From positions 73,061 through 137,060 of the forward strand of contig CAIVAT010000163.1 of the NCBI GenBank assembly GCA_903903985.1: DNA of 64,000 nt, in the 5' to 3' direction. Of this stretch, positions 36,221-57,927 are shown piece by piece. The position numbers and the translations under genes are program-made. Numbering within the stretch: position 1 is the stretch's first letter; each line of letters starts with the position of its first letter. The notes under the pieces were generated by a model. That model searched no databases. It worked only from the letters and a program-made list of their open reading frames with translations, and was not told the DNA's origin. This DNA comes from an uncultured Bacteroidales bacterium (GTDB lineage Bacteria; Bacteroidota; Bacteroidia; Bacteroidales; FEN-979).

Positions 36221-36622
36221 ATGCTTTTGGGCAATTTTTTTGATATTCAATTACTTACAATCGGTGATGTCATTGAGGCACAGCAAAAATGCAGTGCAAT
36301 CGCTGCGCTCAATTGCAACCATCCGATCTATGAAGGGCATTTCCAGGGGAATCCTGTTGTTCCCGGCGTATGCCAGGTTCAGATGGTAGCAGAAATCGTT
36401 GAAATAATTGTTAATCATCCAATTAAACTAACGACCTCGGATAATATCAAGTTTCTTTCGATGATCAATCCAATGGTAAATCCACTGCTGACGTTTGAAA
36501 TAGTCATCAGGCACAATCCTGATCAGTGTTTTTCGGTAACAGCTTCCGTGCAAACGGGGGCCATCCTCTTTTTTAAGTTTAAAGGAAAATTCGAATCTGT
36601 TGAAAAATGCCAAGGAAACTGA
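36221..36622 (+). CDS. FabZ/ApeI-like 3-hydroxyacyl-ACP dehydratase
   Basis: 133 residues, single hotdog fold. 'HPIYEGHFQGNPVVPGV' is the FabZ/FabA-family active-site segment with catalytic His40. The residue that is Glu in FabZ (four after PGV) is Gln54 here. It is probably the beta-hydroxyacyl-ACP dehydratase of the cluster, similar in setting to the ApeI-type dehydratases of aryl-polyene clusters. First gene of the run; its end overlaps the thioesterase start by 16 bp, implying one transcript. Whether the Gln variant still dehydrates or only isomerises/hydrates is unclear. Confidence 0.82.
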   Translation: MLLGNFFDIQLLTIGDVIEAQQKCSAIAALNCNHPIYEGHFQGNPVVPGVCQVQMVAEIVEIIVNHPIKLTTSDNIKFLSMINPMVNPLLTFEIVIRHNPDQCFSVTASVQTGAILFFKFKGKFESVEKCQGN

Positions 36623-36996
36623 CCATAACCCTCTCAGCGCGCGGCTATGAGCTTGATTCATACAACCACATCAACAATGCGGTTTATCTTCAATATTTTG
36701 AGCATGCCCGCTGGGAATTTTTCAGGCAACTTGATCTGTACAGTGTATTAAAAGAAACAAATAACCTTCCGGTTGTGACTGACATTCACATCCGCTACCA
36801 AAGAGAAATAAAACTCTTCGACGAACTGAAGATCGAATCATTTTGTGTGCAGGAAAAACCTTATCTCATTTTCCAACAAAAAATAATCAATTTGTCAACC
36901 GGTCTTTCTTCAGCCAGGGCAACAACAAAACTTATCTTTATTGATAATGACAGAATGGCCAGGGATGTTCCTGGCGAAATTCTATCCTGCATTTAA
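36607..36996 (+). CDS. hotdog acyl-CoA/ACP thioesterase (YbgC/4HBT type)
   Basis: 129 residues. 'YELDSYNHINNAVYLQYFEH' matches the 4-hydroxybenzoyl-CoA-thioesterase pattern D-x-x-x-H-x-N-N-x-x-Y-x-x-x-F-E, with the catalytic Asp in 'ELDSY'. Aryl-polyene clusters carry an equivalent gene (ApeK). It probably edits or releases acyl chains from ACP or CoA. Overlaps the dehydratase gene, with 11 bp to the next start. Confidence 0.86.
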   Translation: MPRKLTITLSARGYELDSYNHINNAVYLQYFEHARWEFFRQLDLYSVLKETNNLPVVTDIHIRYQREIKLFDELKIESFCVQEKPYLIFQQKIINLSTGLSSARATTKLIFIDNDRMARDVPGEILSCI

Positions 36997-37007
36997 ATCG
37001 AGATTGA

Positions 37008-37760
37008 ATGATTCATCGTGATAAATCAACATTTGAGCTAATTGATTCGATCGGGATTATTTCCCTGGACGATCCGCCTGCAAACGCACTTTCGATACCT
37101 GAATTTATCTCCATCCGCCTCCTTCATCAATGGATTGCCAACCCGTCTCTCAAGGGATTGATTATCAGGGGTGAGGGGAAAAATTTTTCTGCCGGTGGGA
37201 ATCTTGAAGCAATCTTCAATGCCAGCGGGAATCCAAAAACCTTACAATCGCTGATGGAGGACGGAATATCCCTTTTAAAGACCATTGAAAACCTTGACAT
37301 TCCGGTTATCGCAGCGATTAACCGGGTTTGCTTCGGAGGCGGGCTTGAAATTGCCCTCGCATGCCACATTCGGATTGCTTCGGAAAATGCACTGCTGGCC
37401 TTTCCGGAAGCGAACTTTAATTTGATGCCAGGGATGGGAGGAACAGTGAGGCTTCCGGCGTATGCAGGTTTTTCCCAATCTGCTGAAATGATCCTTGGCG
37501 GAGATATGATCGATGCCCTGAATGCCAAAGAGCTGGGCATTGTTGATCATATTGCTCCCAAAGACCAGGCATTTGAATATGCATGGACCCTGATGCAAAA
37601 AATGACCCATGACAGGCCGGTAAAAGTAATCAGGTCGATCATGAAAGCGCTGAAAAATGCCGTTGAATTATCACATGATGAGGCCATGAAGGAGGAAACC
37701 CTGTTATTTTGTTCCCTTGCCAGGGATGAGGCCGAACGTCGCAAGAATGAGGAGGCCTGA
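37008..37760 (+). CDS. enoyl-CoA hydratase/isomerase family protein (crotonase 1)
   Basis: 250 residues, crotonase fold. The oxyanion-hole segments are 'GKNFSAGGNLEAI' and 'FGGGLEIALACHIRIA'. The two glutamates used by hydratases are present: Glu114 in 'GGGLE' and Glu134 in 'AFPEANFNLMPGMGGTVRL'. It should therefore be competent for hydration/dehydration of a 2-enoyl thioester. It forms a pair with a second crotonase 3 bp downstream. With the 3-hydroxyacyl-CoA dehydrogenase of the same cluster it could run part of a beta-oxidation-like or reverse cycle on the cluster's acyl chain. Confidence 0.88.
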   Translation: MIHRDKSTFELIDSIGIISLDDPPANALSIPEFISIRLLHQWIANPSLKGLIIRGEGKNFSAGGNLEAIFNASGNPKTLQSLMEDGISLLKTIENLDIPVIAAINRVCFGGGLEIALACHIRIASENALLAFPEANFNLMPGMGGTVRLPAYAGFSQSAEMILGGDMIDALNAKELGIVDHIAPKDQAFEYAWTLMQKMTHDRPVKVIRSIMKALKNAVELSHDEAMKEETLLFCSLARDEAERRKNEEA

Positions 37761-37763
37761 GCC

Positions 37764-38411
37764 ATGACCTGTCAGTGGACCATTGAACAAAGGGTTGGAT
37801 TGCTGACCATGAACCAGCCCCCATCAAACACAATGACCATGCGGTTCTTTGAGGAATTGCATGTGCTTGTGCGTGAAATTTCAACCATGAACGATCTGAA
37901 GGCCATCGTCATCAGCGGAAATGGCCGGCATTACTCATCGGGGGCCGACATCAATGAGTTGCTGCAAAATGTTGACCAACGGACCATGTGTGATAATTAT
38001 CATGCTTTTATCATGCTTGAACAATTGGAAATTCCGGTTATTTCTGCGATACGTGGTGTTTGCCTGGGTTCTGCATTTGAACTCGCCCTGTTCAGTCGTT
38101 TCCGGATTTGTGCCCGGGACGCAGTGCTTGGATTGCCGGAATCAACTTTCAACCTGATGCCGGGAATCGGAGGAATTCAACGGGTTGCAGCACTTGCAGG
38201 TAAAGCCAAAGCCATCGAGATCATCCTGCGCGGAATTACTTTCTCAGCAATGGATGCCCTGGAAATGGGGATGGTTGACGCGGTAGTGCCTGGAAACCGT
38301 GTTATCCCTCTTTCCATGGAATTTGCAAACGCCCTTCCGGAGATTGTTTATAAACCTGACCGTGAACTCTGTCTTCACAAATTTTTAAAGCCCCTGTATG
38401 CAACAAATTGA
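37764..38411 (+). CDS. enoyl-CoA hydratase/isomerase family protein (crotonase 2)
   Basis: 215 residues, shorter than usual (~255) because the C-terminal helical part is reduced. Crotonase motifs are kept: 'GNGRHYSSGADINELL', 'CLGSAFELALFSRFRIC' (Glu106) and 'GLPESTFNLMPGIGGIQRV' (Glu126). It is clearly related to the upstream copy ('FNLMPG-GG' in both), so the pair probably arose by duplication and then diverged. The two may act on different chain positions, or one may isomerise or decarboxylate, as in polyketide beta-branching pairs. Its end overlaps the next gene by 14 bp. Confidence 0.85.
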   Translation: MTCQWTIEQRVGLLTMNQPPSNTMTMRFFEELHVLVREISTMNDLKAIVISGNGRHYSSGADINELLQNVDQRTMCDNYHAFIMLEQLEIPVISAIRGVCLGSAFELALFSRFRICARDAVLGLPESTFNLMPGIGGIQRVAALAGKAKAIEIILRGITFSAMDALEMGMVDAVVPGNRVIPLSMEFANALPEIVYKPDRELCLHKFLKPLYATN

Positions 38412-39522
38412 TCATGAAATATTTGTGAAAGTGGCTGGCAGTGGGTCCTTTTTACCCGGAAGGCCAATTCCTGCCGAAGAGGTCGACAGCTACCTGGGTG
38501 AGTTGACCGCAGCCCCGGAGAAAATTCAAAATTGGCTCAGGCGGATCAGGAACCTGATGAAGGAGTTGCTTGAAGTGGAATACTACCATTTTGCCCTGGA
38601 TCCCATCACCCGGAAATTTACCGAAGACAATGTGACCATGTCGGTGAAAGCTGCCAGGGTAGCCCTTGCAGATGCCGGCATACCGGCCGAAGATATCGGG
38701 CTGATCGTATACGGCAGTGCGCACCAGGACCAGATGCCCACAGCAAGTGTCAGGATCCAGGAAGCATTGGGGATTGAACAATGTGCTGAAATTTCGGTCC
38801 ACGCCAACTGCACCTCGGCGTATAAGGCCCTTTTAATCGGAGCCGACCTGATCCGGAATGGCCGGTATAAAAATGCCCTTGTTATTTCGTCAGGAATTTC
38901 TTCCTCCGAACTGGTTGCCGAATACTACAACCAGCCTCTTGTTAAAAAGGAAGAACTTTTTCTGCGCTACTTTTTAAGCGATGGTGCCGCCGCTATCCTG
39001 TTGAAAGCAGCCGATACCAAAGCCGCCGGTTTGTTCGTTGAATATAACTACATTGAATCCATCGGAGGGTTAAAACCTTCGGCGATGGGAAATAAACGGC
39101 CGGCTTACTTTATGAACCCCAGGGAAGAGTTTGAACTTGGTTATCATCACCTGGCACAGATGTTCCAGGAAGAACTGCGCAGCAACTTCCATGAACCCGA
39201 TGGGTCCGTGTTTCTGAAAGGGTTAACAAGAATGCTTGCGAAGTTTCCTGTTGAGATGGACCGGATAAAATTTTTCCAGGTCAACTTCCCTTCAAAACAC
39301 ATCTCGGAGCTGATCATGGATGAATGTAAAGTCCTGGGGATCAATCGCGAAACCCTTTATTCGAAAATGGCGACCATGGGATACATCGGACCACCCATGG
39401 CACTTCTTTGCCTCGACCGGATCAGAAAAGAGGAACAATTGGTTCCGGGCGATATTATTCTGAGTTTTGTAACTGAAGTGAGCAAGTTCATGCAGGCGGG
39501 TTATGTGATGAGGGAGTGGTGA
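38398..39522 (+). CDS. FabH-like 3-oxoacyl-ACP synthase III with altered active site
   Basis: 374 residues, thiolase fold. The nucleophile Cys138 lies in 'VHANCTSAYKALLIGADLI', and the C-terminal KASIII domain is present ('GDIILSFVTEVSKFMQAGYV'). Normal FabH has His in 'PHQANLRI' and Asn in 'GNTSAASIPLAL'. The corresponding places here read 'FQVNFPSKHISELI' and 'MGYIGPPMALLCL', so both the His and the Asn appear to be missing; a nearby His (in 'SKHI') may substitute. This resembles FabH-like enzymes that transfer acyl groups or use atypical starters rather than doing standard decarboxylative condensation. It is probably the starter-loading or acyl-transfer enzyme of the cluster. It does not resemble HMG-CoA synthase. 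Confidence 0.82.
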   Translation: MQQIDHEIFVKVAGSGSFLPGRPIPAEEVDSYLGELTAAPEKIQNWLRRIRNLMKELLEVEYYHFALDPITRKFTEDNVTMSVKAARVALADAGIPAEDIGLIVYGSAHQDQMPTASVRIQEALGIEQCAEISVHANCTSAYKALLIGADLIRNGRYKNALVISSGISSSELVAEYYNQPLVKKEELFLRYFLSDGAAAILLKAADTKAAGLFVEYNYIESIGGLKPSAMGNKRPAYFMNPREEFELGYHHLAQMFQEELRSNFHEPDGSVFLKGLTRMLAKFPVEMDRIKFFQVNFPSKHISELIMDECKVLGINRETLYSKMATMGYIGPPMALLCLDRIRKEEQLVPGDIILSFVTEVSKFMQAGYVMREW

Positions 39523-39573
39523 ACAGGCGGACCAACGGACGGAAAAATATATGATTTTTTAATTTTTAATTTC

Positions 39574-41115
39574 TTGACAGATATAAAACGATATACCTTA
39601 TTCCTCATTTCTCCAAGGCAGCGGTTTGTTAATTACCCTGCTCACAGTGAGATGGCCAGGATGTTCGGAAAAAAAAGGTTGATGATCCCGTTGGCTCTTC
39701 CTACAATAGCGGCACTTACCCCCGATCATTATGATATCCGTATTTTTGATGAGGAGATTGAAAGCTTACCAAAAAACCTCAAGCCTGATGTTGTTGGGAT
39801 TACAACACTGGCAGCAACGGGTAAGCGTGCATTTGAATTAGGGGACCATTTCCGGAAAATTGGAAGCAAAGTGATTTATGGCGGTCCCTATGCATCTTTC
39901 ATGCGGAAGGAGGCCCTTGAACATGGGGATTGTGTAATAGCCGGGGAGGCTGAAGGTAAATGGGAACAGGCGCTTGAAGATTTTGAAAATGGATGCCTGA
40001 AACCAGTTTATGAATCACAGGACTATGTCGAATATAAGTCACAGAAACCGCCCCGGTGGGATCTTGTGAACATGAAAAGGATCTTCCAGGTGGCGATACA
40101 GGTCTCACGCGGCTGCCCCTTCAACTGCGACTTCTGCCTGGTCTCAAAAAATTTCGGCAGGAAGATGCGCTATCGGACAATTGACAACGTTGTGGAAGAG
40201 ATTAAGGCAGCGCCATCAAAATATTTTTTCTTTGTCGATGACAACCTAACCATCAACAAGAAGTACGCAAAAGAGCTCATGCAAGCCATCATTCCCTTGA
40301 AAATATCATGGGGATGCATGTGCAGCCTGGATGTGGCCACCGATGATGAATTACTGGGCTTAATGGCCCGTGCAGGGTGTTTCAATATCCTCGTCGGATT
40401 CGAATCACTGAACCCTGCCAGCCTGGATGAATCGCAAAAGCACCACAACCGTGGAGGCAGCATCTATGAAGAGGCCATCAAAAAAATCCATGCCGCCGGT
40501 ATCCACATCAATGCAAGCTTTGTTGTGGGTTTTGACAATGATACCCTCGAAGAGTTCGACCGTATTTTCGATTTCACCATGCAGCACAACCTCCCTCATG
40601 TGAACCTGCACCTCCTCAATGCACCCCCCGGAACAGAGACCCACAGGAAGTTCAATGAGGAAGGACGATTGTTGTCATGCGATCCTGAATTGGGTGTGGG
40701 GCACTTCCCTACCCTGCAATACATGAACATGTCGCAGATTGAAATCTTCGATAAATATATGGAGACCGTGACAAAACTCTATTCTTTCAGCACCATACGT
40801 AAAAAGGGTGAAGCATTGCTGGGCAATGGAGCTTTCACCCGGCCCGGCGGGGATATTTCCGTATTCATGAAGGCGCGTCTTTCATGGATAACATTTAAAG
40901 AATTCGTCCTTACCAGCGACCCTGACCGTAAACACTTATTCAAATTCATCCTGAACCTCATTCGTACCAGGCAGATTGCCATTGACAAAGGCCTGGGGTT
41001 CCTGTTATCCATGCTGGGATATAACCGGCACATCAAGGCGCACCACCGCAACATGACAGAATACCGCAAGATTGTGATGGAGCAGGATAAAGGGGCGTGG
41101 AGACATAAATCGTAA
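39574..41115 (+). CDS. B12-binding-type radical SAM protein 1
   Basis: 513 residues from a TTG at 39574; no upstream ATG is in frame and the next ATG would remove conserved sequence. The N-terminal Rossmann-like cobalamin-binding domain (~1-150, 'DVVGITTLAATGKRAFEL') is followed by a radical SAM domain with 'RGCPFNCDFCLVSKNFG' (Cys181, 185, 188) and 'YFFFVDDNL', and a C-terminal extension. The DxHxxG cobalamin motif is absent, as in many BchE-type members. This class does methylation, cyclisation or C-C bond remodelling on unactivated carbons. It lies between the FabH-like and dehydrogenase genes, 51 and 13 bp away, so it is part of the same operon. Confidence 0.88.
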   Translation: MTDIKRYTLFLISPRQRFVNYPAHSEMARMFGKKRLMIPLALPTIAALTPDHYDIRIFDEEIESLPKNLKPDVVGITTLAATGKRAFELGDHFRKIGSKVIYGGPYASFMRKEALEHGDCVIAGEAEGKWEQALEDFENGCLKPVYESQDYVEYKSQKPPRWDLVNMKRIFQVAIQVSRGCPFNCDFCLVSKNFGRKMRYRTIDNVVEEIKAAPSKYFFFVDDNLTINKKYAKELMQAIIPLKISWGCMCSLDVATDDELLGLMARAGCFNILVGFESLNPASLDESQKHHNRGGSIYEEAIKKIHAAGIHINASFVVGFDNDTLEEFDRIFDFTMQHNLPHVNLHLLNAPPGTETHRKFNEEGRLLSCDPELGVGHFPTLQYMNMSQIEIFDKYMETVTKLYSFSTIRKKGEALLGNGAFTRPGGDISVFMKARLSWITFKEFVLTSDPDRKHLFKFILNLIRTRQIAIDKGLGFLLSMLGYNRHIKAHHRNMTEYRKIVMEQDKGAWRHKS

Positions 41116-41128
41116 ACCGTAAATCAAA

Positions 41129-42154
41129 ATGTTCCTCATCAGCAAGATTGGTATCATAGGCGAAGGGAAAATGGGTTCCGGCATCTTTAACTATTTGCTC
41201 GATTATCCTTTCGAATTGACCTGGGTATGCAGTCCGCAGGCAGATACGGATAAACTGACAAGGCAGTTTGCAAAACGGATCAACCGATCGCTTGATGCAG
41301 GAATTATTGATCAGCAAAGGTTTGACTCTTTAAAGCAGACCACCCTCACCCGGAGCCTGGATGATCTTAAACGGTGCAACCTGATCATTGAAGCAGTGCC
41401 TGAAATACCTCAACTCAAAAGGGAACTGTTTGCCGGGCTGGATAAAATCGTTGACCCTGCAGCTATTTTTACATCAAATTCTTCTTCCATCAATCCATCC
41501 AGGTTAGCCATTGCAGGCAATAGCCGCAGGCAATTGGCCGGGCTTCATTTTTTTTATCCGGTCGCTCTTAAAAATATCGTTGAATTCACCGTTACCGAAG
41601 AAATAACTGAGGAAACACGCATGGTTGTTGAAACTTTTCTCAAAACGATACAACGTCGCTTTATTACACTGGATGAGAAAAACAGCTTCATGCTTAACAA
41701 AATTTTTCTTGATTTGCAGAATGAAGCGTTTCTGCTGGTTCATGCAGGCCATTGCAGCTACGTCCAGATGGATCAACTGGTTAAAACCCATTTATTCCCG
41801 TTTGGAATCTTTGATTTCTGTGATAGCGTCGGTCTTGACACCATGCTTTGGTCTGTCATGAATTACACCGCGCAATATCCGCATGAAAGTTATTATTCAC
41901 AATTTATCAACGCCTTATCAGAACTGGTTTCCCAAGGAAGGCTAGGCATGAAAACACAGCGGGGATTTCATGATTATCCAATGGAAAGTGAAGTTGTTCC
42001 TCCACCTGTAAACGCACTGGAGATCGTCAATCATCTTCGGCAGGCTTACCTTTCATCAGCCAAAAGATTCACAGCCCTTGCCCATATTCCGATGGATGAT
42101 GCAAACCATGCGATCAAAGAGTATTTTAACCTCGACAAAGGGCCATTCGAATGA
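41129..42154 (+). CDS. 3-hydroxyacyl-CoA dehydrogenase
   Basis: 341 residues. The NAD-binding motif is 'IGIIGEGKMGSGIF' (~8-20). 'LIIEAVPEIPQLKREL' follows, then the catalytic segment 'LAGLHFFYPVALKNIVEF' with His140 and the C-terminal 3HCDH domain. Family members oxidise L-3-hydroxyacyl-CoA to 3-oxoacyl-CoA or run in reverse. No FabG/ApeQ-type short-chain reductase is present in the cluster, so this enzyme is the best candidate for reducing the 3-keto group formed by the ketosynthase. Confidence 0.88.
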   Translation: MFLISKIGIIGEGKMGSGIFNYLLDYPFELTWVCSPQADTDKLTRQFAKRINRSLDAGIIDQQRFDSLKQTTLTRSLDDLKRCNLIIEAVPEIPQLKRELFAGLDKIVDPAAIFTSNSSSINPSRLAIAGNSRRQLAGLHFFYPVALKNIVEFTVTEEITEETRMVVETFLKTIQRRFITLDEKNSFMLNKIFLDLQNEAFLLVHAGHCSYVQMDQLVKTHLFPFGIFDFCDSVGLDTMLWSVMNYTAQYPHESYYSQFINALSELVSQGRLGMKTQRGFHDYPMESEVVPPPVNALEIVNHLRQAYLSSAKRFTALAHIPMDDANHAIKEYFNLDKGPFE

Positions 42155-42196
42155 CCATAAATCACTGAATTATTTCACATCGTCGGTAATTCGGGT

Positions 42197-42204: not shown

Positions 42205-42224
42205 TAAAAATAAAATCAAAAACC

Positions 42225-42617
42225 ATGAAAAAAATTGCATTTGTATCTCTTGTTGCAATGTGTATGACGTTTGCCATTGCGATGTTACTAACTACTCAAT
42301 CTGCAATCGGATCCAAAAAACCCATTTCAGCAGGTCCCGGCATTGCCCTTCCTGACAGCATCCAGAAGATGGTGAAAAGAGCTTGCATGGATTGTCATGC
42401 CGATGATGGAAACTTTATGGCAAAAGGAAAAGTCAATTTCTCTGTCTGGGATAAATACGATGCTGAAAAGCAGGCTGGTAAAGCAAAAGCGATATGCAAA
42501 GTACTGACCAAAGGTTCCATGCCACAAAAGAAGTGGTGTACCAATAATCCAAAGGATGTTCCAACACAAGCCGAAAAAGATATGGTTTGCAGGTGGGCCA
42601 ATGGTTTACAGAAATAG
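42225..42617 (+). CDS. haem-binding periplasmic protein (monohaem CxxCH)
   Basis: 130 residues from the ATG at 42225. A signal peptide (MKKIAFVSLVAMCMTFAIAM) precedes a domain with 'RACMDCHADDG' (CxxCH at 54-58) and further conserved Cys near the C-terminus ('KWCTNNPKDV', 'VCRWANGL'). This fits the PF14376-like haem-binding domain of Bacteroidota. It probably carries one covalently bound c-type haem in the periplasm. It lies inside the biosynthetic operon, 8 bp before the ketosynthase start, which suggests a role as electron donor or acceptor for a cluster oxidoreductase; this is inference. Confidence 0.85.
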   Translation: MKKIAFVSLVAMCMTFAIAMLLTTQSAIGSKKPISAGPGIALPDSIQKMVKRACMDCHADDGNFMAKGKVNFSVWDKYDAEKQAGKAKAICKVLTKGSMPQKKWCTNNPKDVPTQAEKDMVCRWANGLQK

Positions 42618-42625
42618 TTAACAGG

Positions 42626-44064: not shown

Positions 44065-44373
44065 ATGGCTGCAATAACGGAAAGCATCAGGAATGAAGTC
44101 AAAGAGATCGTTTACAGTTTTTTTGCCGAAGAATGTGAAGTTGAAATTGCTCAGATCAATGAAAATACCAGCATCATCAACGATCTCGATGGAGATTCCC
44201 TGATGTTCCTGGAACTGATTGAAATATTCAAGAAAAAGTACAACCTAGATATTGAGCTGAAAGTAATTGGCAAATATGCTGTAAAACACCCGGTGACTAC
44301 CATCGGGCAATTGGTCGATATGCAATTGCTTATCATTGAACATGAGAATCGGCTAATGGAGATAGATCAATAA
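44065..44373 (+). CDS. acyl carrier protein
   Basis: 102 residues from the ATG at 44065; upstream non-ATG starts would place the promoter inside the coding region. 'IINDLDGDSLMFLELIEIFK' carries Ser45 in the DSL phosphopantetheine site, with the usual four-helix ACP pattern. It is about 20 residues longer than FabC-type ACPs, mostly at the ends. Only ACP in the cluster; it carries the growing chain for the FabF-type synthase. Confidence 0.92.
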   Translation: MAAITESIRNEVKEIVYSFFAEECEVEIAQINENTSIINDLDGDSLMFLELIEIFKKKYNLDIELKVIGKYAVKHPVTTIGQLVDMQLLIIEHENRLMEIDQ

Positions 44374-48131: not shown

Positions 48132-48163
48132 ACCCCGTCAGGGTGATGGACCCCGTCAGGGTG
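48132..48163 (+). repeat. tandem copies of accccgtcagggtg
   Basis: Two exact copies (48132-48145 and 48150-48163), 18 bp apart, in the divergent gap between radical SAM protein 3 and the glycosyltransferase. A third copy and its near-complement form the hairpin at 56606-56638. Confidence 0.75.
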
Positions 48164-48190
48164 GGGCCATACAGTATCGCTGAATTATCC

Positions 48191-48198
48191 TATCTTTG
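48191..48198 (+). promoter_or_regulatory. -7 box (TATCTTTG) before glycosyltransferase
   Basis: TAnnTTTG match 35 bp before the ATG at 48233. Because it lies downstream of earlier in-frame ATGs (48143, inside the repeat), it argues for 48233 as the true start. Confidence 0.5.
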
Positions 48199-48232
48199 TC
48201 CATCTTTACAGAATCAACCTTTGATCGTTCCA

Positions 48233-49420: not shown

Positions 49421-52400
49421 TCTCTTCATAAATATTTATCTTTTCTTCGGCTCACGAAAGGCACTCTTTTTTGCTTTACTAGCTATTATTTCGGTTTCCC
49501 TTGCATTCCTTGCTTCCCGGATTCGCCTGGAAGAGGACATATCGCATTCGGTTTCAGGCAACAATCATCATGACAACATTGATTTCGTTGTCAGGAATTT
49601 AAAGATAAGCGATAAGCTGATTGTCGATATTACCAGGGTGGATTCACTCGCTGCAGTGAACCCGGAAGAACTGGGATCGGCCGGAGCCCGGTTTGTTGAT
49701 TCCCTGAATGCACGATTCGATGCCGGTATCATTCGCAACATTTCATTTAGGGCATCCGATTCGGCTATGGCTTCCATGATGGATCTCATGACAAGCCATC
49801 TTCCCACATTTATGGATGAACCTGACTATCAATCAATCGATAGCCTGATACGCCCTGAATCCATTCAAAAAGCACTTGAAACAAATTACAAGATCCTGAT
49901 CTCCCCGGCGAGCATGGTCCTGAAAAAACGAATACAGCAGGATCCGCTGGGGATCTCAACCCTTGCCTTTAACAAGTTAAAGTCACTGAAGGCTGGTGAT
50001 AATTTTGAGATTAACAATGGGTGTGTCTATTCAAAAGATTTACGTCATCTGCTCATCTTTATCATCCCTGCAAATCCTTCAAGTGAAACTTCCCGGAATG
50101 ACATGCTGATCGGGGGGCTCGATGATATGATCCACGGGTTGAAGTCAGGGCCCGACTCAACGTTCAGCATCCGGTATTTTGGAGGAACAGCAGTGGCAGT
50201 ATGCAATGCAAGGCAACTGAAAAAGGATATCGTTCTGACACTGATTATCGCAATTATTTTGATATTCCTGCTTGTCGGATGGTATTTTAAAAGTATCAGG
50301 ATTCCCTTGCTGGGTTTGTTGCCGGCACTTTTCGGCGGTGCATTCTCCCTGGCAATTCTCTACATCACACAAGGTAAAATTTCCGCCATTTCACTGGGGA
50401 TTGGTTCCGTGATCCTTGGGCTCATTGTTGATTATTCCCTATACCTTGTGAACCATTATCGCGTGAAGCAGGATATCACACTCACCCTGAAGGAAATGTC
50501 ACTGACCATTGTATTATGCAGCCTGACTTCGGCCGGTGCATTCCTATGCCTGACCCTTCTCAATTCTGTTGTTTTACAGGGCCTTGGATGGTTTGCCGCC
50601 CTAAGTGTGGTTGGTGCTGCCTTGTTTACACTGATCGTACTTCCTCATTTCCTGGATACCAAACTTTTAGAGGCCAGTGAAACCAGGCGTATAAATATTG
50701 TTGACCGCGTTGCATCCTTCCCGTTTGAGAAAAAAAAATGGCTGGTCGCCGGGTTAATCGCCATCGGTATCCTGGGCATCTGGTTTTCCCGATCAGTTGA
50801 ATTCGAGAAAAACATGTCGGTACTCAGTTTTGTCACCCCTCAACTCTCTAAGGCGGAATCTGAACTTGATAAAATAAGCAACTACAAATTGAAAAACCTC
50901 TATCTCGTGGCGACCGGAAAAACAACGGAAGAAGCCCTGAGAAACCAGGAAATAACTGCAGGAAAGGTGAATTTTCTCCTGAGGAATGGAACGATCAGGA
51001 GTATATCAAATGCAGGTGCGCTGCTTACTTCCGACTCCTTGCAACAGCTCAAGATTGCACGGTGGAACCGTTACTGGACCACGCGAAAAATACACCGGTT
51101 GAAAACTGATTTGACTGACAAATCGAAACAATATGGATTTCGTCCTGCTGCATTCGACTCTTTTTTTGGCTTACTTGAAAAAAAATACAAATCGCTTACT
51201 CCGGGGGAACTGAATATTTCGGGAAACGCGATGGTTGCAGACTGGCTTTCTGTGAACCCGGGGATGTCACTTGCACCGACCATCCTGAAGGTCAGTGAAG
51301 ATAAAAAAGAGTTGGTTTACCGGGAATTTCAAAATAATTCACGATGTGTGCTGATCGACAAACAATCCATCACACAGCGTTTTGTCGAAAATGTAAAGCA
51401 TGATTTCGATCGGCTGGTCATGCTTTCCATGATCTTTGTCACATTGCTCCTGATCTTCTCCCTGGGTCGCCTTGGCCTGGGTCTGATGACCGCCCTGCCG
51501 ATGTTTTTCAGCTGGATCATTACCCTCGGATTTATGGGCCTGGCGGGCATACGGTTTAACATATTCAACATCATCATCTCATCCTTTATCTTCGGACTGG
51601 GCGTTGATTATAGTATCCTGATGATGCGTGGGTTGCAGCACTCCCTGAAAACGGGTAAAGATGAATTGCATGGATACAAGGTTTCCGTGCTTCTATCGTC
51701 ACTGACCACCTTGTTCGGCGTCGGAGCCCTCTTTTTTACCCGCCATCCTGCCCTCAACTCCATCGCCATGGTTTCGGTGGTTGGTATTGTAGCGGTTGTC
51801 ATGGTTTCTTTTGTCTTCCAGCCGTTGATCTTCAATTGGGTCATTCTGGAAAGGAACAGGAAAAACAAATTCCCGGTAACCTTCCGGATATTGATTAAAA
51901 CTCTGGTGACCTGGGGCAACATCGTCATGATTTCCTTGATCCTGATGATCCTGGGCGCCATGATCAACCTCCTGTTACCCATAAAACGGAAGAAAAAGGA
52001 GAGGCTGTTTCACCGGTTATTTTACTGGCTTACAAAAGCTTATATTGCATTTACTTTTGCGTACGACCGGAAACTGATCAATGAACATGGCGAAGATTTC
52101 AACAAACCCGCCATCATCATCAGCAATCACCAGAGTCTCATTGAAACCCCGGCTTTTCTAAGGTTATATCCTAAAATCCTCATTCTTACCACCACCTGGG
52201 TTTATCGTTCTCCGGTATTCGGCCCGATTGCCAGGCTTGCAAACTACTACAACGTTGATCATGGGATTGAAAGCATCATCGGCCAGCTGAAAGAGAAAGT
52301 GGATGAAGGGTTTTCGATCCTTATATTCCCTGAAGGACATCGTTCATCGGATCAGCATATTCAACGCTTTCACCGGGGGGCTTTTTACCTTGCTGAAAAA

Positions 52401-53327
52401 TTATCGATCGACATTCTCCCCATCATGGTGTTCGGCACCGGTGATTTCCTAGGAAAAGGTGCCTTCTGGGGCAGACCAAACAGCTTCAGGATGAAGATTC
52501 TCAACCGGGTGACCACCGCCGATCAATCGTTTGGGGCAACATACCAGGAAAGGTCAAGGAATTTCCGCCAGTTTTATATAACCAACTATGCACAATTTAA
52601 AGCTGAAGAAGGAAATGCACATTATTTCCGCCGCTTGCTGGCTTTGAATTATGTTTTGAAAGGTCCTGTCCTCGAATGGTACCTGCGAGTGAAAATGAAA
52701 CTGGAAAACAACTACGAAATTTATAACCAACTGATGCCGAGGCATGGAGAAATCCTCGACCTTGGCTGTGGGGACGGGTTTATTTCCTACATGCTGATGT
52801 TTACCGGAGACCACCGGTATATCAGGGGGGTGGATTATGATGCAGAGAAAATCGAAATAGCCGAAAACTGCTTTTCCAGGAATAAGCGCATCAGTTTTTC
52901 AACTGCGGATGTTTCTGATTATGAAATTACTCCAAAGAACGGATTTTTACTGAATGATGTCCTTCATTACCTGGCTCCGGAAAAACAGGTGGCCCTGTTG
53001 CGAAAATGCTTTGCAAACCTGAACCCGGGAGGATGCATCCTCATCAGGGAAGCAAATTCTGATTTGCCGGAACGACATAAAATGTCCAGGATGACAGAAT
53101 TCATTTCAACGCATATCGGTTTTAATAAAACCAGTACAAAAGAAAAACGCCTGTATTTCACTTCAGCGATAGAGATACAATCCATGGCGGCGGAATTTGG
53201 CTTATCAGTTGACATCTATGACAATAAAAAAATAACCTCAAACAATCTTTTTGTATTGAGAAAATTGGAATCCCCTATTCCCCTAACCCCTTCTATCAGA
53301 GGGAGAACGGGATTTCCCTCTCCTTGA
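49413..53327 (+). CDS. MMPL-type exporter fused to acyltransferase and methyltransferase
   Basis: 1304 residues from the ATG at 49413, which overlaps the previous gene and suits the N-terminal membrane segment 'ALFFALLAIISVSLAFLA'. Part 1 (~1-830) is an RND/MMPL transporter with 12 membrane segments in two halves. Part 2 (~860-1080) is a PlsC-type acyltransferase: 'IIISNHQSLIE' (905-911) stands where NHxxxxD is usual, and 'IFPEGHRSS' (~971-978). Part 3 (~1110-1290) is a SAM methyltransferase with 'LDLGCGDGFISYML' (1115 on). Aryl-polyene and flexirubin clusters have these activities, usually as separate proteins. It probably acylates, methylates and flips the finished lipid towards the outer membrane. 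The last ~18 residues are read out of a palindromic repeat. Confidence 0.9.
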   Translation: MSDLFINIYLFFGSRKALFFALLAIISVSLAFLASRIRLEEDISHSVSGNNHHDNIDFVVRNLKISDKLIVDITRVDSLAAVNPEELGSAGARFVDSLNARFDAGIIRNISFRASDSAMASMMDLMTSHLPTFMDEPDYQSIDSLIRPESIQKALETNYKILISPASMVLKKRIQQDPLGISTLAFNKLKSLKAGDNFEINNGCVYSKDLRHLLIFIIPANPSSETSRNDMLIGGLDDMIHGLKSGPDSTFSIRYFGGTAVAVCNARQLKKDIVLTLIIAIILIFLLVGWYFKSIRIPLLGLLPALFGGAFSLAILYITQGKISAISLGIGSVILGLIVDYSLYLVNHYRVKQDITLTLKEMSLTIVLCSLTSAGAFLCLTLLNSVVLQGLGWFAALSVVGAALFTLIVLPHFLDTKLLEASETRRINIVDRVASFPFEKKKWLVAGLIAIGILGIWFSRSVEFEKNMSVLSFVTPQLSKAESELDKISNYKLKNLYLVATGKTTEEALRNQEITAGKVNFLLRNGTIRSISNAGALLTSDSLQQLKIARWNRYWTTRKIHRLKTDLTDKSKQYGFRPAAFDSFFGLLEKKYKSLTPGELNISGNAMVADWLSVNPGMSLAPTILKVSEDKKELVYREFQNNSRCVLIDKQSITQRFVENVKHDFDRLVMLSMIFVTLLLIFSLGRLGLGLMTALPMFFSWIITLGFMGLAGIRFNIFNIIISSFIFGLGVDYSILMMRGLQHSLKTGKDELHGYKVSVLLSSLTTLFGVGALFFTRHPALNSIAMVSVVGIVAVVMVSFVFQPLIFNWVILERNRKNKFPVTFRILIKTLVTWGNIVMISLILMILGAMINLLLPIKRKKKERLFHRLFYWLTKAYIAFTFAYDRKLINEHGEDFNKPAIIISNHQSLIETPAFLRLYPKILILTTTWVYRSPVFGPIARLANYYNVDHGIESIIGQLKEKVDEGFSILIFPEGHRSSDQHIQRFHRGAFYLAEKLSIDILPIMVFGTGDFLGKGAFWGRPNSFRMKILNRVTTADQSFGATYQERSRNFRQFYITNYAQFKAEEGNAHYFRRLLALNYVLKGPVLEWYLRVKMKLENNYEIYNQLMPRHGEILDLGCGDGFISYMLMFTGDHRYIRGVDYDAEKIEIAENCFSRNKRISFSTADVSDYEITPKNGFLLNDVLHYLAPEKQVALLRKCFANLNPGGCILIREANSDLPERHKMSRMTEFISTHIGFNKTSTKEKRLYFTSAIEIQSMAAEFGLSVDIYDNKKITSNNLFVLRKLESPIPLTPSIRGRTGFPSP

Positions 53328-53341
53328 GGAGAGGGTTAGGG
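53281..53341. repeat. palindromic REP-like element at 3' end of exporter gene
   Basis: Inner arms ccctctcct/aggagaggg (53316-53335, 2-nt loop) and outer arms ccctaaccc/gggttaggg (53281-53289 / 53333-53341). The stop codon of the exporter gene lies inside the inner hairpin, so the protein tail 'PLTPSIRGRTGFPSP' is repeat-derived. Confidence 0.7.
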
Positions 53342-53393
53342 TGAGGCAATTCCAGAGAAATGGAGTGAAGTATTATAACGTGCAGACTGACAA

Positions 53394-54911
53394 ATGAATA
53401 AATTCGATGTGATCATCATTGGTTCCGGGCTTGGCGGGCTTCTTTGCGGGTATATTCTTTGCAAAGAGGGGCTGAATGTATGCATCCTCGAAAAGCACAA
53501 TCAACCCGGCGGAAACCTCCAGACCTTTAGCAGGCATGGGCATCAATTTGAAACCGGGGTCCATTATATCGGAGCCCTGGGCCCCAACCAAACATTGTCA
53601 CGATATTGGAATTACTTTGGATTAATGAACAAATTGTCTCTGCAACAGCTTGACATGGATGGTTTTGACCGCATCGCTTTTGGAGATGAGGAGTTCTCCT
53701 TTGCCCAGGGTTTTGAAAATTTTTCAGATCAGCTTATGCAGCACTTTCCGGGGGAAAAAGCCGCATTGAATAAATTTATCCGGACCATTCATGAAGTCAT
53801 ATCCGCCTTTCCGCTCTATAACCTTGAATTGCCTGTCGACCATCGCGAACATCATTACACCACCCAAAGTATTTATGAATTCTTAAATAAATTATCACAA
53901 ACAGATCAAAAATCAAAAGGCAAAAATCGAAAATCAAAAATTCCCCTTTCCTCCGTCCTTGCCGGAAACAATTACCTTTATGGAGGGAGCAGTGTATCGC
54001 CGCTGCATGTCGCTTCACTGATAAACCATTCGTTCATTTCTGGCGCCTACCGGATCATAGGTGGAAGTGACCAGGTTTCCAAGGCCCTGGTTCAGTCAAT
54101 TACAGCCCAGGGAGGAACTGTCAATACAAAGCGGGAAGTCAGCTCCATCAGGCATATGCAACAGAACTTTTTCATCACGACAACCGATGGGGATAATTAT
54201 CTGTCGAAGTTGGCCATCTCGGACATCCACCCGGCACAAACCCTGGCAATGATGCCTCCCGAAATGGTACGTTCTGCCTATCAGAAACGAATCGTTTCCT
54301 TAAAAAACACCACTTCATCCTTTATAGTCTACCTTACCATTAAACCCGGCACTTTTCCTTACTTAAATTTTAATTATTATTATCATGTTACTGCCAATCC
54401 CTGGGATGAATCGGAATCTTCTGACGCATTATGGCCGAAGATGTACCTGATTTCCACCGGCTGTCATATGCAGAATCAGAAGTTTGCCGAAACTGTGACT
54501 ATTCTTACTTACATGAGATACGATGAGGTGGCCGCATGGGAAAATACCACTGTTGGTAAAAGAGGACCCGGATACATCGATTTCAAGGCGAGGAAAGCGA
54601 AAGCACTCCTCAAACTGGTTTCAAAGAAATTTCCGGGATTGCTGAACTGTATAGACAAGATGGAAATTTCTACCCCCCTGACCTATCGTGACTATACCGG
54701 TACTGCTGAAGGGTCACTTTATGGAATTCAGAAAAGCTTTCATGAACCTTTGCTGACCACGGTGTTGCCCAAAACCAAGATTCCGAATTTCTATTTTACC
54801 GGGCAAAATACGAATCTGCATGGCGTGCTGGGAGTAACCATCGGCTCGGTAGTTACCTGTGGCGAAATATTAGGATTGGAATATCTCATGAAAAAAATCC
54901 AGCATGGCTGA
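53394..54911 (+). CDS. CrtI/RetSat-like FAD-dependent oxidoreductase
   Basis: 505 residues. The N-terminal FAD Rossmann motif 'VIIIGSGLGGLLCGYILCKE' is followed by 'LEKHNQPGGNLQTFSRHGH' and 'FETGVHYIG', the phytoene-desaturase/all-trans-retinol-saturase pattern. The C-terminal FAD segment is 'FYFTGQNTNLHGVLGVTIGS'. It acts on conjugated or polyunsaturated chains in carotenoid and retinoid systems, so here it may desaturate, saturate or isomerise the cluster's acyl chain. A Lys/Ser-rich stretch (169-183) stems from an A-rich repeat-like DNA stretch. It overlaps the next gene by 8 bp. Confidence 0.88.
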   Translation: MNKFDVIIIGSGLGGLLCGYILCKEGLNVCILEKHNQPGGNLQTFSRHGHQFETGVHYIGALGPNQTLSRYWNYFGLMNKLSLQQLDMDGFDRIAFGDEEFSFAQGFENFSDQLMQHFPGEKAALNKFIRTIHEVISAFPLYNLELPVDHREHHYTTQSIYEFLNKLSQTDQKSKGKNRKSKIPLSSVLAGNNYLYGGSSVSPLHVASLINHSFISGAYRIIGGSDQVSKALVQSITAQGGTVNTKREVSSIRHMQQNFFITTTDGDNYLSKLAISDIHPAQTLAMMPPEMVRSAYQKRIVSLKNTTSSFIVYLTIKPGTFPYLNFNYYYHVTANPWDESESSDALWPKMYLISTGCHMQNQKFAETVTILTYMRYDEVAAWENTTVGKRGPGYIDFKARKAKALLKLVSKKFPGLLNCIDKMEISTPLTYRDYTGTAEGSLYGIQKSFHEPLLTTVLPKTKIPNFYFTGQNTNLHGVLGVTIGSVVTCGEILGLEYLMKKIQHG

Positions 54912-56625
54912 CCACACACATCCCAGGCTTAGACGGATTGTTTTAATCTTCTTGCTCCTGCTGGCAATCATTGCAGGTTTAGCACTGTGGTTTCATTACC
55001 GAACAACCTTAATTCCACCTGAACCCCAGGATACAACATCCGTCAACCTCGTCACGGAGAATCCTGCTCCTGATTTTTACCGGATCGGCCCGAACTGGTT
55101 GAAAAAAAGTTCCAGCGGGTTGTGGGAAATGTACATCGAAGGAAAACCATTTGAACGGGGAGTGATCAATGGCAAACTTTCAAAACACCTCATTGCCGCA
55201 CAGGAAAAGGCTTTCATTGACCAGATACGCGAAATGGTTCCTTCCGCTTTCTACCTGCATTTTTTAAAATACCTCATCTATTGGTTTAACCGTGATCTTG
55301 ACAAATATCTCACGGAAGAATACAAGCTTGAGATATATGGAATATCCCTGTCTGCCTCTCCGCAGTTTGATTTCATCGGTTCAAACTATCAGCGAATCCT
55401 CAACTACCATTCTGCTCATGATATCGGCCATGCGCTGCAGGATTACAGGCTCGTGGGCTGCACAAGTTTTGGTGTTTGGTCTGAAAAATCAAAAGACAGC
55501 AATCTGATCATCGGTCGTAATTTTGATTTTTATGTTGGGGATGAATTTGCCAGGAATAAGATCATCTGTTTTGAAAAGCCGGACCAGGGGTTTGGTTTCA
55601 TGATGGTTACCTGGGGTGGAATGGTTGGGGCTGTTTCCGGGATGAACGAAGCAGGCCTGACAGTAACCATCAATGCTGCCAAATCTGAAATTCCAACCTC
55701 AGCGCGAACTCCGATTTCGATTGTTGCCCGTGAAATTCTTCAATATGCTTCTACGATCAGCGAAGCCTATGCCATTGCCGGCAAACGCCAAACGTTCGTC
55801 TCCGAGTCAATTCTTATCGGCTCTGCAAAAGACGGTAAAGCAGCCATCATTGAAAAATCGCCTTTTAAAATCGCCCTGGTCACCTCCTCCACCAGCGATA
55901 TTTGTTGTGCAAACCATTTTCAATCCCCTGAATTCGATTCAGATCCGCTCAACATCCTGAATAAGAAGGAGAATGCTTCTGTTTACCGCTATAAACGGCT
56001 TGTCCAGGACATCGCAGGCAACTCACCCTTGGATTACCGGGGTGTTGCAGCCATTCTTCGCGACAGGCAGGGGCTGAACGGGATAAACATCGGCATGGGC
56101 AACGAAAAGGCCATGAACCAGCTTATCGCACATCATTCAATCATCTTTATGCCGGAAAAGTTGCTGGTTTGGGTTTCAACCTCACCATGGCAAATCGGGC
56201 CATATGTATGTTATGACCTATATAAAATTTTTCATAACTTTGCCCGCCTTCAGCAGAAGGTTGAAATAACGGAAGCAGCATTGACTATTCCCTCCGATGA
56301 TTTTCTTGAATCCATTGATTACAGGAATTTTATGCAGTTCATTGTGATGAGAAAAGATCTGAGACAAAAGCTTAAATTCGGAAAGACCAACCTGCTGCCG
56401 GGTTCTTTTCTTCATGATTTCAGGAATTCCAATCCCATGTGTTATGAGGTTTATGAGCTGATCGGAGATTATTATTACCAGAATAATCAATGGATGCATG
56501 CTCAGGCTGAATACCGCCATGCACTGTCATTGGTTATCCCGCGATTAAATGAAAAAAGAAGGATCATTGGAAAACTTGCTGAATGCAATGTTCGGATAAT
56601 AAAAGCACCCCGTCAGGGTGAATGA
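54904..56625 (+). CDS. membrane-anchored C45-family Ntn hydrolase / acyltransferase
   Basis: 573 residues. One N-terminal membrane anchor (~11-30, 'RIVLIFLLLLAIIAGLALWF') is followed by a C45/penicillin-acyltransferase-type Ntn domain. 'LVGCTSFGVWS' has the Gly-Cys autoprocessing site (Cys186 becomes the N-terminal nucleophile), followed by 'GRNFDFYVGDEF' and 'VSGMNEAGLTVTINAA'. Family members hydrolyse amides or transfer acyl groups to amines. Placed in a lipid-building cluster and anchored on the periplasmic side, it may attach the acyl chain to an amine. The C-terminal 'KAPRQGE' comes from the hairpin repeat at 56606-56638. Confidence 0.86.
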   Translation: MADHTHPRLRRIVLIFLLLLAIIAGLALWFHYRTTLIPPEPQDTTSVNLVTENPAPDFYRIGPNWLKKSSSGLWEMYIEGKPFERGVINGKLSKHLIAAQEKAFIDQIREMVPSAFYLHFLKYLIYWFNRDLDKYLTEEYKLEIYGISLSASPQFDFIGSNYQRILNYHSAHDIGHALQDYRLVGCTSFGVWSEKSKDSNLIIGRNFDFYVGDEFARNKIICFEKPDQGFGFMMVTWGGMVGAVSGMNEAGLTVTINAAKSEIPTSARTPISIVAREILQYASTISEAYAIAGKRQTFVSESILIGSAKDGKAAIIEKSPFKIALVTSSTSDICCANHFQSPEFDSDPLNILNKKENASVYRYKRLVQDIAGNSPLDYRGVAAILRDRQGLNGINIGMGNEKAMNQLIAHHSIIFMPEKLLVWVSTSPWQIGPYVCYDLYKIFHNFARLQQKVEITEAALTIPSDDFLESIDYRNFMQFIVMRKDLRQKLKFGKTNLLPGSFLHDFRNSNPMCYEVYELIGDYYYQNNQWMHAQAEYRHALSLVIPRLNEKRRIIGKLAECNVRIIKAPRQGE

Positions 56626-56638
56626 CCCTGACAGGGTG
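56606..56638. repeat. palindromic repeat overlapping the stop of the C45 gene
   Basis: caccccgtcagggt / accctgacagggtg, 14-bp arms with one mismatch and loop gaatg. It shares its sequence with the repeats at 48132-48163. The stop codon of the C45 gene lies at the loop/right-arm boundary. An A-run follows, not a T-run, so terminator function for the + strand is unlikely. Confidence 0.7.
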
Positions 56639-56655
56639 ATAAAAAAAAATTGATC

Positions 56656-57927
56656 ATGAAGTTTAAACTGATATATCCCCGTTGGGAAAAACTCGAAGGA
56701 CAAACCATCTTTAACCTTCCTCCCCATGGACCGGTGGTCATGGCTGCCGAAATCCCTCAAAATATTGAAATTGACTTCACTGACGAAAATGTTGAGGAGC
56801 TTATTATTGATGAAAGTCCTGATTTCGTTGGAATTTCAATGATGCTGACTACCCAGGTCAAACGCGGATGGGAAATTGCCGACCAGTATCGGAAACTTGG
56901 TAAAAAGGTGATCTTCGGTGGTATTTCAACCATGTTGCATGCCGAAGAGACCATGCTGCATGCCGATTCCGTTTTCCTTGGCGAAGTGGAAGGACGGCTT
57001 GGCGAAGTATTTCAGGATTTCCACAAAAATGACCTGAAAAAGATCTACAACTTCATGAGCAAGCCGGCTGACATGACGCTGATTGGCCCGGCAAAACGGG
57101 ATATTCTGAAGAAAGACCTTTATTATCACAAAGGCTTTCGAATGGTTGACCTTTTCCATGCCTCGCGCGGATGCATCTATGATTGTTATCCTTGTGCTGT
57201 CCGATACCTTGGCGGCCGTGGCTTTCGTCCACGCCCGATCGACAAGGTTGTCGAAGAACTGTCGCAAATGGACAACAACCGCCTTTTCATCGTTGATAAC
57301 TCTCTTGCACTTGATACGCAATGGGAAAAAGACCTTTTCAAGGCGATGATCCCCCTGAAGAAAAAATGGGTGAGCCATACCATCGAAGATAAAGATGAAG
57401 TGCTGGATCTGGCTGCCCAGGCAGGCGCGTGGTATGTGTACCAGGCTGTATTCGATACTTCCGACTACATTAAAAACCGTATCAAACAGTATCATGAATA
57501 TGGCATTGCGGTTGAAGGAACCGTTTTACTTGGCCTTGACAATCAAACCGAAGATGATATCAAGCGTCTGGTTGATTTCCTCCTCGAAATCGAACTCGAT
57601 CTTGCTGAGTTCACTGTCCTTGCACCTTTTCCGCATACAAAAGCATATAGCGACCTGCTGAAACAGGGTCGTATTTTCGATACTGATTGGAATCATTACA
57701 ATGCCGGAAAAGTGGTTTATCACCCTAAACATATGTCGGCTGAACGGCTGGCTGAACTTTACCAGTATGCCTGGGATACTTTCTACAAGGATGAGCCCCA
57801 GACGATTAAAATGTTCAACCTGATCAACAAGGTTGTTTCACGCGAAATTGTTGACGGAACCTACACCCCCCGCCGCCGCGATATCGCCGATCTCAGCTTT
57901 GGAAAAAAAGTTCCTAAAGTGGCATGA
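56656..57927 (+). CDS. B12-binding-type radical SAM protein 4
   Basis: 423 residues from the ATG at 56656; a TTG 6 bp upstream is the only other start in reach. The short cobalamin-binding-like domain has 'DFVGISMMLTTQVKRGWEIA' and 'VIFGGISTMLHAEET'. The radical SAM site is 'SRGCIYDCYPCAVRY' (Cys173, 177, 180), with 'GTVLLGLDNQTEDDIKRLVD' in the barrel. It follows the C45 gene by 30 bp and ends the cluster on the + strand. Closer in layout to radical SAM protein 1 than to 2 and 3, but clearly different from it. Substrate unknown. Confidence 0.87.
   Translation: MKFKLIYPRWEKLEGQTIFNLPPHGPVVMAAEIPQNIEIDFTDENVEELIIDESPDFVGISMMLTTQVKRGWEIADQYRKLGKKVIFGGISTMLHAEETMLHADSVFLGEVEGRLGEVFQDFHKNDLKKIYNFMSKPADMTLIGPAKRDILKKDLYYHKGFRMVDLFHASRGCIYDCYPCAVRYLGGRGFRPRPIDKVVEELSQMDNNRLFIVDNSLALDTQWEKDLFKAMIPLKKKWVSHTIEDKDEVLDLAAQAGAWYVYQAVFDTSDYIKNRIKQYHEYGIAVEGTVLLGLDNQTEDDIKRLVDFLLEIELDLAEFTVLAPFPHTKAYSDLLKQGRIFDTDWNHYNAGKVVYHPKHMSAERLAELYQYAWDTFYKDEPQTIKMFNLINKVVSREIVDGTYTPRRRDIADLSFGKKVPKVA

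Follow-up and report, generated by a model that had tools for sequence, protein, structure and literature searches.

A probable flexirubin-type aryl-polyene cluster of an uncultured Bacteroidales bacterium, enlarged by an apparently undescribed module with B12-type radical SAM enzymes

Flexirubins, the orange marker pigments of Bacteroidetes, are aryl-polyene esters of dialkylresorcinol, and DarA and DarB make their resorcinol half. Here, we have analysed a stretch of 64,000 nucleotides (the window, G000:C163:73061-137060) from the genome assembly of an uncultured Bacteroidales bacterium (5.2 Mb, 195 contigs, 87% complete), and we consider it likely that a gene cluster starting at position 36221 is the second half of a flexirubin (flx)-type aryl-polyene cluster enlarged by an undescribed module. 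Judged by gene content and order, this is a flexirubin-type aryl-polyene cluster that is split in this genome and enlarged by inserted genes; its flx half is of a known kind, and the inserted module is conserved and apparently undescribed. The initial annotation had seen a lone lipid/polyketide cluster that fits neither the flexirubin nor the ladderane model, as it has no ammonia-lyase, coenzyme A (CoA)-ligase or FabG-type reductase. That it is a lipid/polyketide cluster with export and tailoring genes like those of flexirubin and aryl-polyene clusters is borne out, the same genes being present in plain flx clusters. The idea of a lone cluster was rejected, because all three enzymes are encoded elsewhere in the same genome (contigs C6 and C180) and are joined to the cluster in relatives.

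According to the excerpts of PMC3992019, the flx clusters of Chitinophaga pinensis and Flavobacterium johnsoniae have the ammonia-lyase FlxA at one end and the CoA-ligase FlxY at the other, and their toolkit includes type II ketosynthase, reductase and dehydratase, polysaccharide deacetylase, acyltransferase, LolA, glycosyltransferase and exporter. A second locus on contig C6 (L087, L096) of the genome studied here encodes an aromatic ammonia-lyase (PF00221, 541.6 bits), a FabG-like short-chain dehydrogenase/reductase, canonical and non-canonical ketosynthases, a thioesterase, an ATP-binding cassette (ABC) transporter, two BtrH_N-DUF4872 proteins, a lipid-A-type acyltransferase, an acyl carrier protein (ACP)-like gene, a deacetylase and a dehydratase. 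Its LolA2_flexi and LolB2_flexi proteins score 211.9 bits (cut-off 125) and 85 bits (cut-off 60), a DarG-family protein scores 117.4 bits against DarG_fam (cut-off 70), and the ketosynthases cKS3, gKSx1 and gKSx2 lack the active Cys. FlxY is found on contig C180 (712.1 bits, cut-off 520), 1.2 kb from its end. Since ABC, BtrH and ACP-like genes run from the window to the end of C163, and FlxY is near the end of C180, the two contigs are probably neighbours.

In four relatives (G025, G032, G020 and G030) the core is continuous with the window genes on a single contig. The run of G025 goes past rsD, the last radical S-adenosylmethionine (SAM) gene, through x58041, TonB58, OMT, ABC, BtrH and ACP-like genes to FlxY (L273), and the whole, starting at the ammonia-lyase, measures ∼50 kb. 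The core and window-type loci share one contig, well apart, in G008. In G002 and G018, the module locus lacks the MMPL-CrtI-C45 genes, of which the ammonia-lyase locus holds a divergent copy, and this ties the core and module loci together. As the core is present in the same genome and both halves are continuous in relatives, we read the window as the second half of a flexirubin-type cluster. The genes of the cluster are listed below, with residue counts over the loci compared; in the KSIII counts over 93 loci, given further below, some contigs appear twice because two collections were used.

36221-36622, plus strand: DH, FabA/FabZ-like dehydratase (Pfam FabA; catalytic His in 41/41 loci)
36607-36996, plus strand: TE, 4HBT-type thioesterase, a module gene (Pfam 4HBT_2)
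37008-37760, plus strand: ECHa, crotonase (Pfam ECH_1; both catalytic Glu in 88/88 loci)
37764-38411, plus strand: ECHb, crotonase (Pfam ECH_1; both catalytic Glu in 87/87 loci)
38398-39522, plus strand: KSIII, DarB/StlD-related thiolase-fold protein with catalytic His and Asn replaced (StlD 5gk0, E 6e-19)
39574-41115, plus strand: rsA, B12-binding radical SAM protein (Pfam; CxxxCxxC in 57/57 loci)
41129-42154, plus strand: HAD, 3-hydroxyacyl-CoA dehydrogenase (Pfam 3HCDH_N and 3HCDH)
42225-42617 (open reading frame listed from 42078), plus strand: HEM, small haem-binding protein (Pfam Haem_bd)
42626-43840, plus strand: KS, canonical FabF ketosynthase (NF005589, 450.8 bits, cut-off 387; Cys, His, Lys and His in 90/90 loci)
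44065-44373, plus strand: ACP with DSL serine (Ser in 71/71 loci)
44389-45309, plus strand: AT, FabD-fold acyltransferase without the malonyl-binding Arg (Ser and His in 68/68 loci, Ala at the Arg position in 66/68)
45281-46702, minus strand: rsB, B12 radical SAM protein, ladderane-type neighbour (TIGR04072, 319.5 bits, cut-off 360)
46746-48086, minus strand: rsC, B12 radical SAM protein, HpnR/BchE-like (HpnR, 142.7 bits, cut-off 650)
48143-49420, plus strand: GT2-DUF2062 glycosyltransferase, flx-type export/tailoring (also in plain flx clusters)
49413-53327, plus strand: MMPL exporter-acyltransferase-methyltransferase fusion (also in plain flx clusters)
53394-54911, plus strand: CrtI-like FAD oxidoreductase (38-41% relatives within plain flx clusters)
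54904-56625, plus strand: C45 autoproteolytic acyltransferase/hydrolase (NF040521, 217.5 bits, cut-off 85; Cys in 53/53 loci)
56650-57927, plus strand: rsD, B12 radical SAM protein (the most conserved of 11 tested genes)
58041-58427, plus strand: x58041, 128-residue protein directly after rsD
58448-60835, plus strand: TonB58, outer-membrane-type protein with a CarboxypepD_reg domain (near rsD or rsC elsewhere too)
60874-62661, plus strand: x60874, protein that adjoins the cluster in a few relatives
62842-63945, plus strand: OMT, O-methyltransferase (Pfam Methyltransf_2; FlxJ_fam 40.8 bits, cut-off 560)

The 18 tightly packed genes of the initial annotation are all present, with intergenic gaps of -29 to 224 bases and only rsB and rsC on the minus strand; the probable true starts of HEM (42225), KS (42626), ACP (44065) and MMPL (49413) lie inside the listed open reading frames. 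Pfam and NCBIfam matches uphold the family assignments (FabF, ACP, acyltransferase, hotdog dehydratase and thioesterase, FabH-like, crotonases, 3-hydroxyacyl-CoA dehydrogenase, CrtI, C45, GT2-DUF2062 and MMPL), and HEM is the eighteenth gene, which had been left unnamed. Compared with G013, all 11 of the 18 genes that were tested are under strong purifying selection (pS 0.61-0.77, pN 0.02-0.22), rsD being the most constrained (pN 0.020). That gene content and order are kept in relatives, and that synonymous change far exceeds nonsynonymous change, puts the cluster beyond chance. The right limit first set at 57927 is too short: x58041, TonB58, x60874 and OMT follow (58041-63945), and then ABC-permease-, BtrH- and ACP-like genes outside the window (L101).

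The inserts stand out against plain flx clusters. In G437 the order is DH-GT2-MMPL-CrtI-C45-FlxY with no inserts, and DarB (615.8 bits, cut-off 550), FlxY (688.7, cut-off 520) and LolA2 (192.6, cut-off 125) are all recognized; DarA and DarB adjoin the core radical SAM gene, and the ammonia-lyase is on another contig. G056 has a single run from ammonia-lyase to C45, again with no inserts. DH is the first gene past the LolA2/LolB2 end of the core in relatives and adjoins GT2 in plain clusters. In the window, the first insert, TE-crotonase-crotonase-KSIII-radical SAM-HAD-haem-KS-ACP-AT-radical SAM-radical SAM, lies between DH and GT2, and the second, radical SAM-x58041-TonB-OMT, follows C45. Three further genomes (G519, G436 and G512; L167, L169, L176) have the flx order with rsD, x58041 and two CrtI genes and are without the module; neither DarA nor DarB appeared in what was read of these three. 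Thus, rsD-x58041 and the KSIII module were added separately. Their paired CrtI genes are adjacent, and are fused into one 1005-residue open reading frame in L167. The refuting condition set by the initial annotation, a match to a characterised cluster, applies to the flx half, which corresponds to flexirubin, and not to the inserted module.

KSIII has kept Cys138 in 93/93 loci, and has Asn296 in place of His in 92/93 and Tyr329 in place of Asn in 93/93. It shares with the ketosynthases StlD and DarB the fold family, full-length alignment and the catalytic Cys; at the corresponding positions StlD and the DarB of G437 have the complete Cys-His-Asn site, whereas only the Cys remains in KSIII. His109, His135 and His301 are new conserved residues, and KSIII misses the cut-offs of both NF005293 (100.2 of 450) and NF053539 (78.4 of 550). 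AT resembles FabD and MdcH, scores below the curated cut-offs, and has Ala in place of the malonyl-binding Arg.

All four proteins rsA, rsB, rsC and rsD have B12-binding and radical SAM domains, as had been proposed, and the three Cys are kept in all counted loci. The suggested link to ladderane candidates also has support, rsB being closest to TIGR04072 (rSAM_ladder_B12), and the radical SAM protein of the C6 core exceeds the cut-off of that family (422.7 bits, cut-off 360). Such 'ladderane' radical SAM proteins are found inside flx-type cores of several families (L087, L094, L095, L090). The nearest solved structure to rsB is TsrM (6wte, E 1e-35), a tryptophan C2-methyltransferase; the substrate of rsB is surely a different one. 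In six contigs of relatives rsA and HAD form a single protein (L187/L038, L195/L056, L221/L054, L199, L200, L216), and in G020, G025 and G032 the core radical SAM protein is fused to the lipid-A-type acyltransferase (LPLAT-rSAM). These fusions suggest acyl intermediates as the target of the radical SAM enzymes, which would work beside a hydroxyacyl dehydrogenase and an acyltransferase.

Among smaller components, HEM is found in 28/80 KSIII loci and is a possible electron partner within the module. The x58041 protein has no Pfam or NCBIfam match; its homologues immediately follow rsD in relatives and also in other families, at 37-82% identity (BLASTP rows), which makes it a promising candidate partner of rsD. 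In other families too, TonB58-type proteins lie close to rsD or rsC (L098, L166, L173, L177, L180), and TonB58 may be a dedicated outer-membrane component. OMT homologues lie near the module in 16/80 KSIII loci. The x60874 gene was seen in 4/33 relatives (fetched stretches) and has no match in Pfam or NCBIfam.

To map synteny, 36 genus and family relatives were searched with CrtI and 33 were mapped (G010, G031 and G034 were excluded). The fetched stretch shows the complete set of 18 genes in 3/33 (G020, G030, G032), 15 to 17 of them in seven more and fewer in 23, many of these 23 ending early at the limit of a 20-kb stretch or of a contig. The gene set is therefore found together in relatives, and the objection that its genes occur apart fails. 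An rsD orthologue (at least 78% identity) is present in 42/43 family genomes (G357 has a 35% relative only) and in 28/295 genomes of the order, four of which belong to the own family; an ammonia-lyase orthologue (at least 67% identity) is present in 37/43 and 60/295. The two co-occur in 22 genomes of the order (odds ratio 22, p 2.6e-12, kinship uncorrected). With the same query DarA was found in 36/295 order genomes and in 0/43 family genomes. A search with rsB at E 1e-60 in 296 genomes of the phylum hit only the own genome, which says little, since the draw held no other family member.

Beyond the family, a KSIII scan of genome contigs gave 145 matching stretches (108 of these being relatives), of which the best 80 were kept. 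Among these 80 loci the order ECHa-ECHb-KSIII is kept in 73, with TE in front in 67, and in 51 the fetched stretch includes a member of the stricter flx set. The module also follows rsD-x58041 (L230, L242, L257) or lies beside FlxY (L237, L254). In a tree of 77 rows, the five with Spirochaetes in their titles group as one clade (support 99/97), and three of these loci share their own gene order, with BtrH nearby; Chlorobiota, Neomarinimicrobiota and Calditrichaceae each appear in the title of one or two rows. Phylum labels of the module rows, Spirochaetota included, are the submitters' titles, and titles of metagenome-assembled genomes can be wrong: L205, titled Alphaproteobacteria bacterium INTA.CYC.164, is probably a mislabelled Bacteroidales genome of the window's genus.

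We would like to point out that several observations weigh against reading the window as half of an enlarged flexirubin-type cluster. The C6 DarG-family protein misses the flexirubin_DarG equivalog cut-off (116.2 of 170), and the best DarB score in the own genome is 74.2 of 550, that of KSIII itself; this absence is weak evidence, as the assembly is 87% complete. The locus lacks rsB in G006, G008 and G011, MMPL and C45 are gone from the module locus in G005 and G012, and in G016 and G021 no KSIII module stands alongside the export block and rsD. A clear ammonia-lyase orthologue was not found in 6/43 family genomes, and 29/80 KSIII loci have no stricter flx-set gene in the fetched stretch, many of these stretches being short. 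Nor are the additions and the resorcinol genes mutually exclusive: rsD and DarA occur together in 10/295 genomes, and among ammonia-lyase genomes DarA is present in 9/22 with rsD versus 22/38 without (p 0.28). Because DarA also adjoins rsD in G464, we rejected a rule that rsD replaces DarA. G433 and G616, from other families, apparently hold both KSIII (L254, L212) and DarA, so that the module need not replace DarAB.

How the enlarged cluster could work is suggested by its enzymes. The ammonia-lyase and FlxY would supply 4-coumaroyl-CoA, which the C6 ketosynthases, reductase and dehydratases would lengthen into an ACP-bound aryl-polyene acid. This acid would be joined to a lipid and delivered to the outer membrane by GT2-DUF2062, the MMPL-acyltransferase-methyltransferase, LolA2/LolB2, C45 and the TonB-type protein. 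Since rsD and x58041 also occur without the module, they may act on the common aryl-polyene product. By analogy with flexirubin biochemistry (PMC3992019, in excerpt), the product would be an outer-membrane aryl-polyene lipid. With less certainty, AT, ACP, KS, ECHa, ECHb, HAD, TE, KSIII and rsA-rsC could build a second acyl chain on ACP in a manner resembling type II fatty-acid synthesis and beta-oxidation, and the B12 radical SAM enzymes, rsA together with HAD, could methylate or cyclise it without oxygen. KSIII, in which the Cys is kept and the decarboxylation residues are gone, may then transfer this chain without condensation, in the role that DarB has for flexirubin. We infer that the partner is not a resorcinol, is made or modified by the module, and is transferred rather than condensed by KSIII. 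That this amounts to a new class of anaerobic pigment lipid, an aryl polyene with a non-resorcinol acyl partner methylated or cyclised on ACP and attached by KSIII, is a tentative proposal to which we give somewhat less than an even chance.

The module could instead decorate the aryl polyene itself, by ring or chain methylation or by cyclisation, with no separate partner and with KSIII and TE merely shuttling the polyene. We find this rather unlikely, even with some evidence in its favour. Both rsB and the C6 radical SAM protein fall into the TIGR04072/TsrM group, and TsrM, the nearest to rsB, methylates an aromatic carbon, as its PDB molecule name also states. Clusters without the module have rsD (L167, L169, L176). 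Methionine is the source of the ring methyl of flexirubin, according to the excerpts of PMC3992019. However, the module has its own KS, ACP, AT, two crotonases and HAD, with catalytic residues that appear to be kept, which exceeds what decoration needs, and the C6 half already supplies ketosynthase, reductase, dehydratase and ACP. It is improbable that the module forms an anaerobic lipid pathway of its own, for a ladderane-like or polyunsaturated fatty acid, that merely neighbours flx genes. The similarity to TIGR04072, the Kuenenia and Desulfotalea clusters with radical SAM, CrtI-like and odd FabF genes (PMC2649909 and PMC4790861, in excerpt) and the 29/80 KSIII loci with no strict flx gene nearby are what such a pathway would have on its side. 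The insert, however, lies inside the flx order with DH and GT2 on either side, the association with flx genes recurs in other arrangements (after rsD-x58041; beside FlxY), and KSIII is DarB/StlD-like.

The set of a thiolase-fold enzyme, two crotonases, ACP, KS and AT is also comparable to the beta-branching cassettes of 3-hydroxy-3-methylglutaryl (HMG)-CoA-synthase type, and there is a weak similarity to HMG-CoA synthase (42.6 bits of 244), so that KSIII, ECHa, ECHb, ACP and KS might add a carbon branch. In such cassettes Ser replaces the Cys of the ketosynthase; as the KS here retains its Cys in 90/90 loci, we rejected beta-branching as the best reading. KSIII is closer to StlD and DarB, and to our knowledge HAD is foreign to these cassettes, leaving this option very unlikely. 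That the crotonases, HAD and the thioesterase are catabolic beta-oxidation genes present by accident, as their similarity to parts of FadB/FadJ might suggest, is hardly credible given the TE-ECHa-ECHb-KSIII order in 67/80 loci, the rsA-HAD fusions, and the presence of neither acyl-CoA dehydrogenase nor thiolase among the 18 genes.

Flexirubin-type synthesis with an inserted module is thus the reading we prefer. In common with flexirubin clusters are the ammonia-lyase, the type II set, deacetylase, acyltransferase, glycosyltransferase and exporter, as well as FlxY, LolA2_flexi and LolB2_flexi, the last three exceeding their cut-offs; different here are the two inserts, the B12 radical SAM protein also in the core, the split over contigs, and that no DarA or DarB was found. 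The clusters proposed for ladderanes in Kuenenia stuttgartiensis and Desulfotalea psychrophila have B12/radical SAM and CrtI-like proteins and FabF paralogues with altered sites (PMC2649909 and PMC4790861, in excerpt), the last with possible counterparts on C6 in cKS3, gKSx1 and gKSx2. The published gene lists, as excerpted, also share FabZ, FabG, ACP, glycosyltransferase and a phenylacetate-CoA-ligase-type enzyme with the genes described here. In contrast to those candidates, the window KS is canonical, rsB is under the TIGR04072 cut-off (the C6 radical SAM protein being above it), and ammonia-lyase and flx-type Lol genes are present. The Kuenenia list (PMC4790861, in excerpt) overlaps the flx toolkit, and ladderane-candidate and flx-type clusters may be related. 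Celluxanthenes of cellulolytic anaerobes are likewise anaerobic aryl polyenes joined to a partner, with two KAS-III proteins; they differ in having an iterative type I polyketide synthase, and the word 'radical' is absent from the text of PMC12144888. In the PMC literature searched, which covers neither subscription journals nor preprints, we found no report on flexirubin with radical SAM, on cobalamin-dependent radical SAM with polyene, on TIGR04072, or on dialkylresorcinol with flexirubin in Bacteroidales; papers that mention both aryl polyenes and radical SAM, PMC9902471 among them, do occur there.

A flx frame without resorcinol genes, to which up to five B12 radical SAM enzymes have been added, would show how a pigment can be reworked anaerobically and without oxygen. 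It provides a link to the radical SAM/CrtI/FabF clusters suggested for ladderane synthesis and, if our reading is true, the ladderane-type clusters of other phyla could be read with it as one aryl-polyene-like superfamily. The KSIII with its changed active site and the radical SAM-dehydrogenase fusion are concrete targets. Sample names suggest anoxic lakes and sediments as the host habitat, and the carriers are uncultured, probably anaerobic bacteria.

A tRNA scan found no genes. Immediately left of the cluster, positions 29912-35704 encode a 1930-residue protein with a Por secretion tail, relatives of which lie near the cluster in a few genomes (L091, L178, L242, L247). Positions 14509-17091 encode a C10 peptidase with a Spi inhibitor domain and a Por secretion tail, and the rest of the left side of the window holds large secreted proteins, a GH31 enzyme and ordinary genes.

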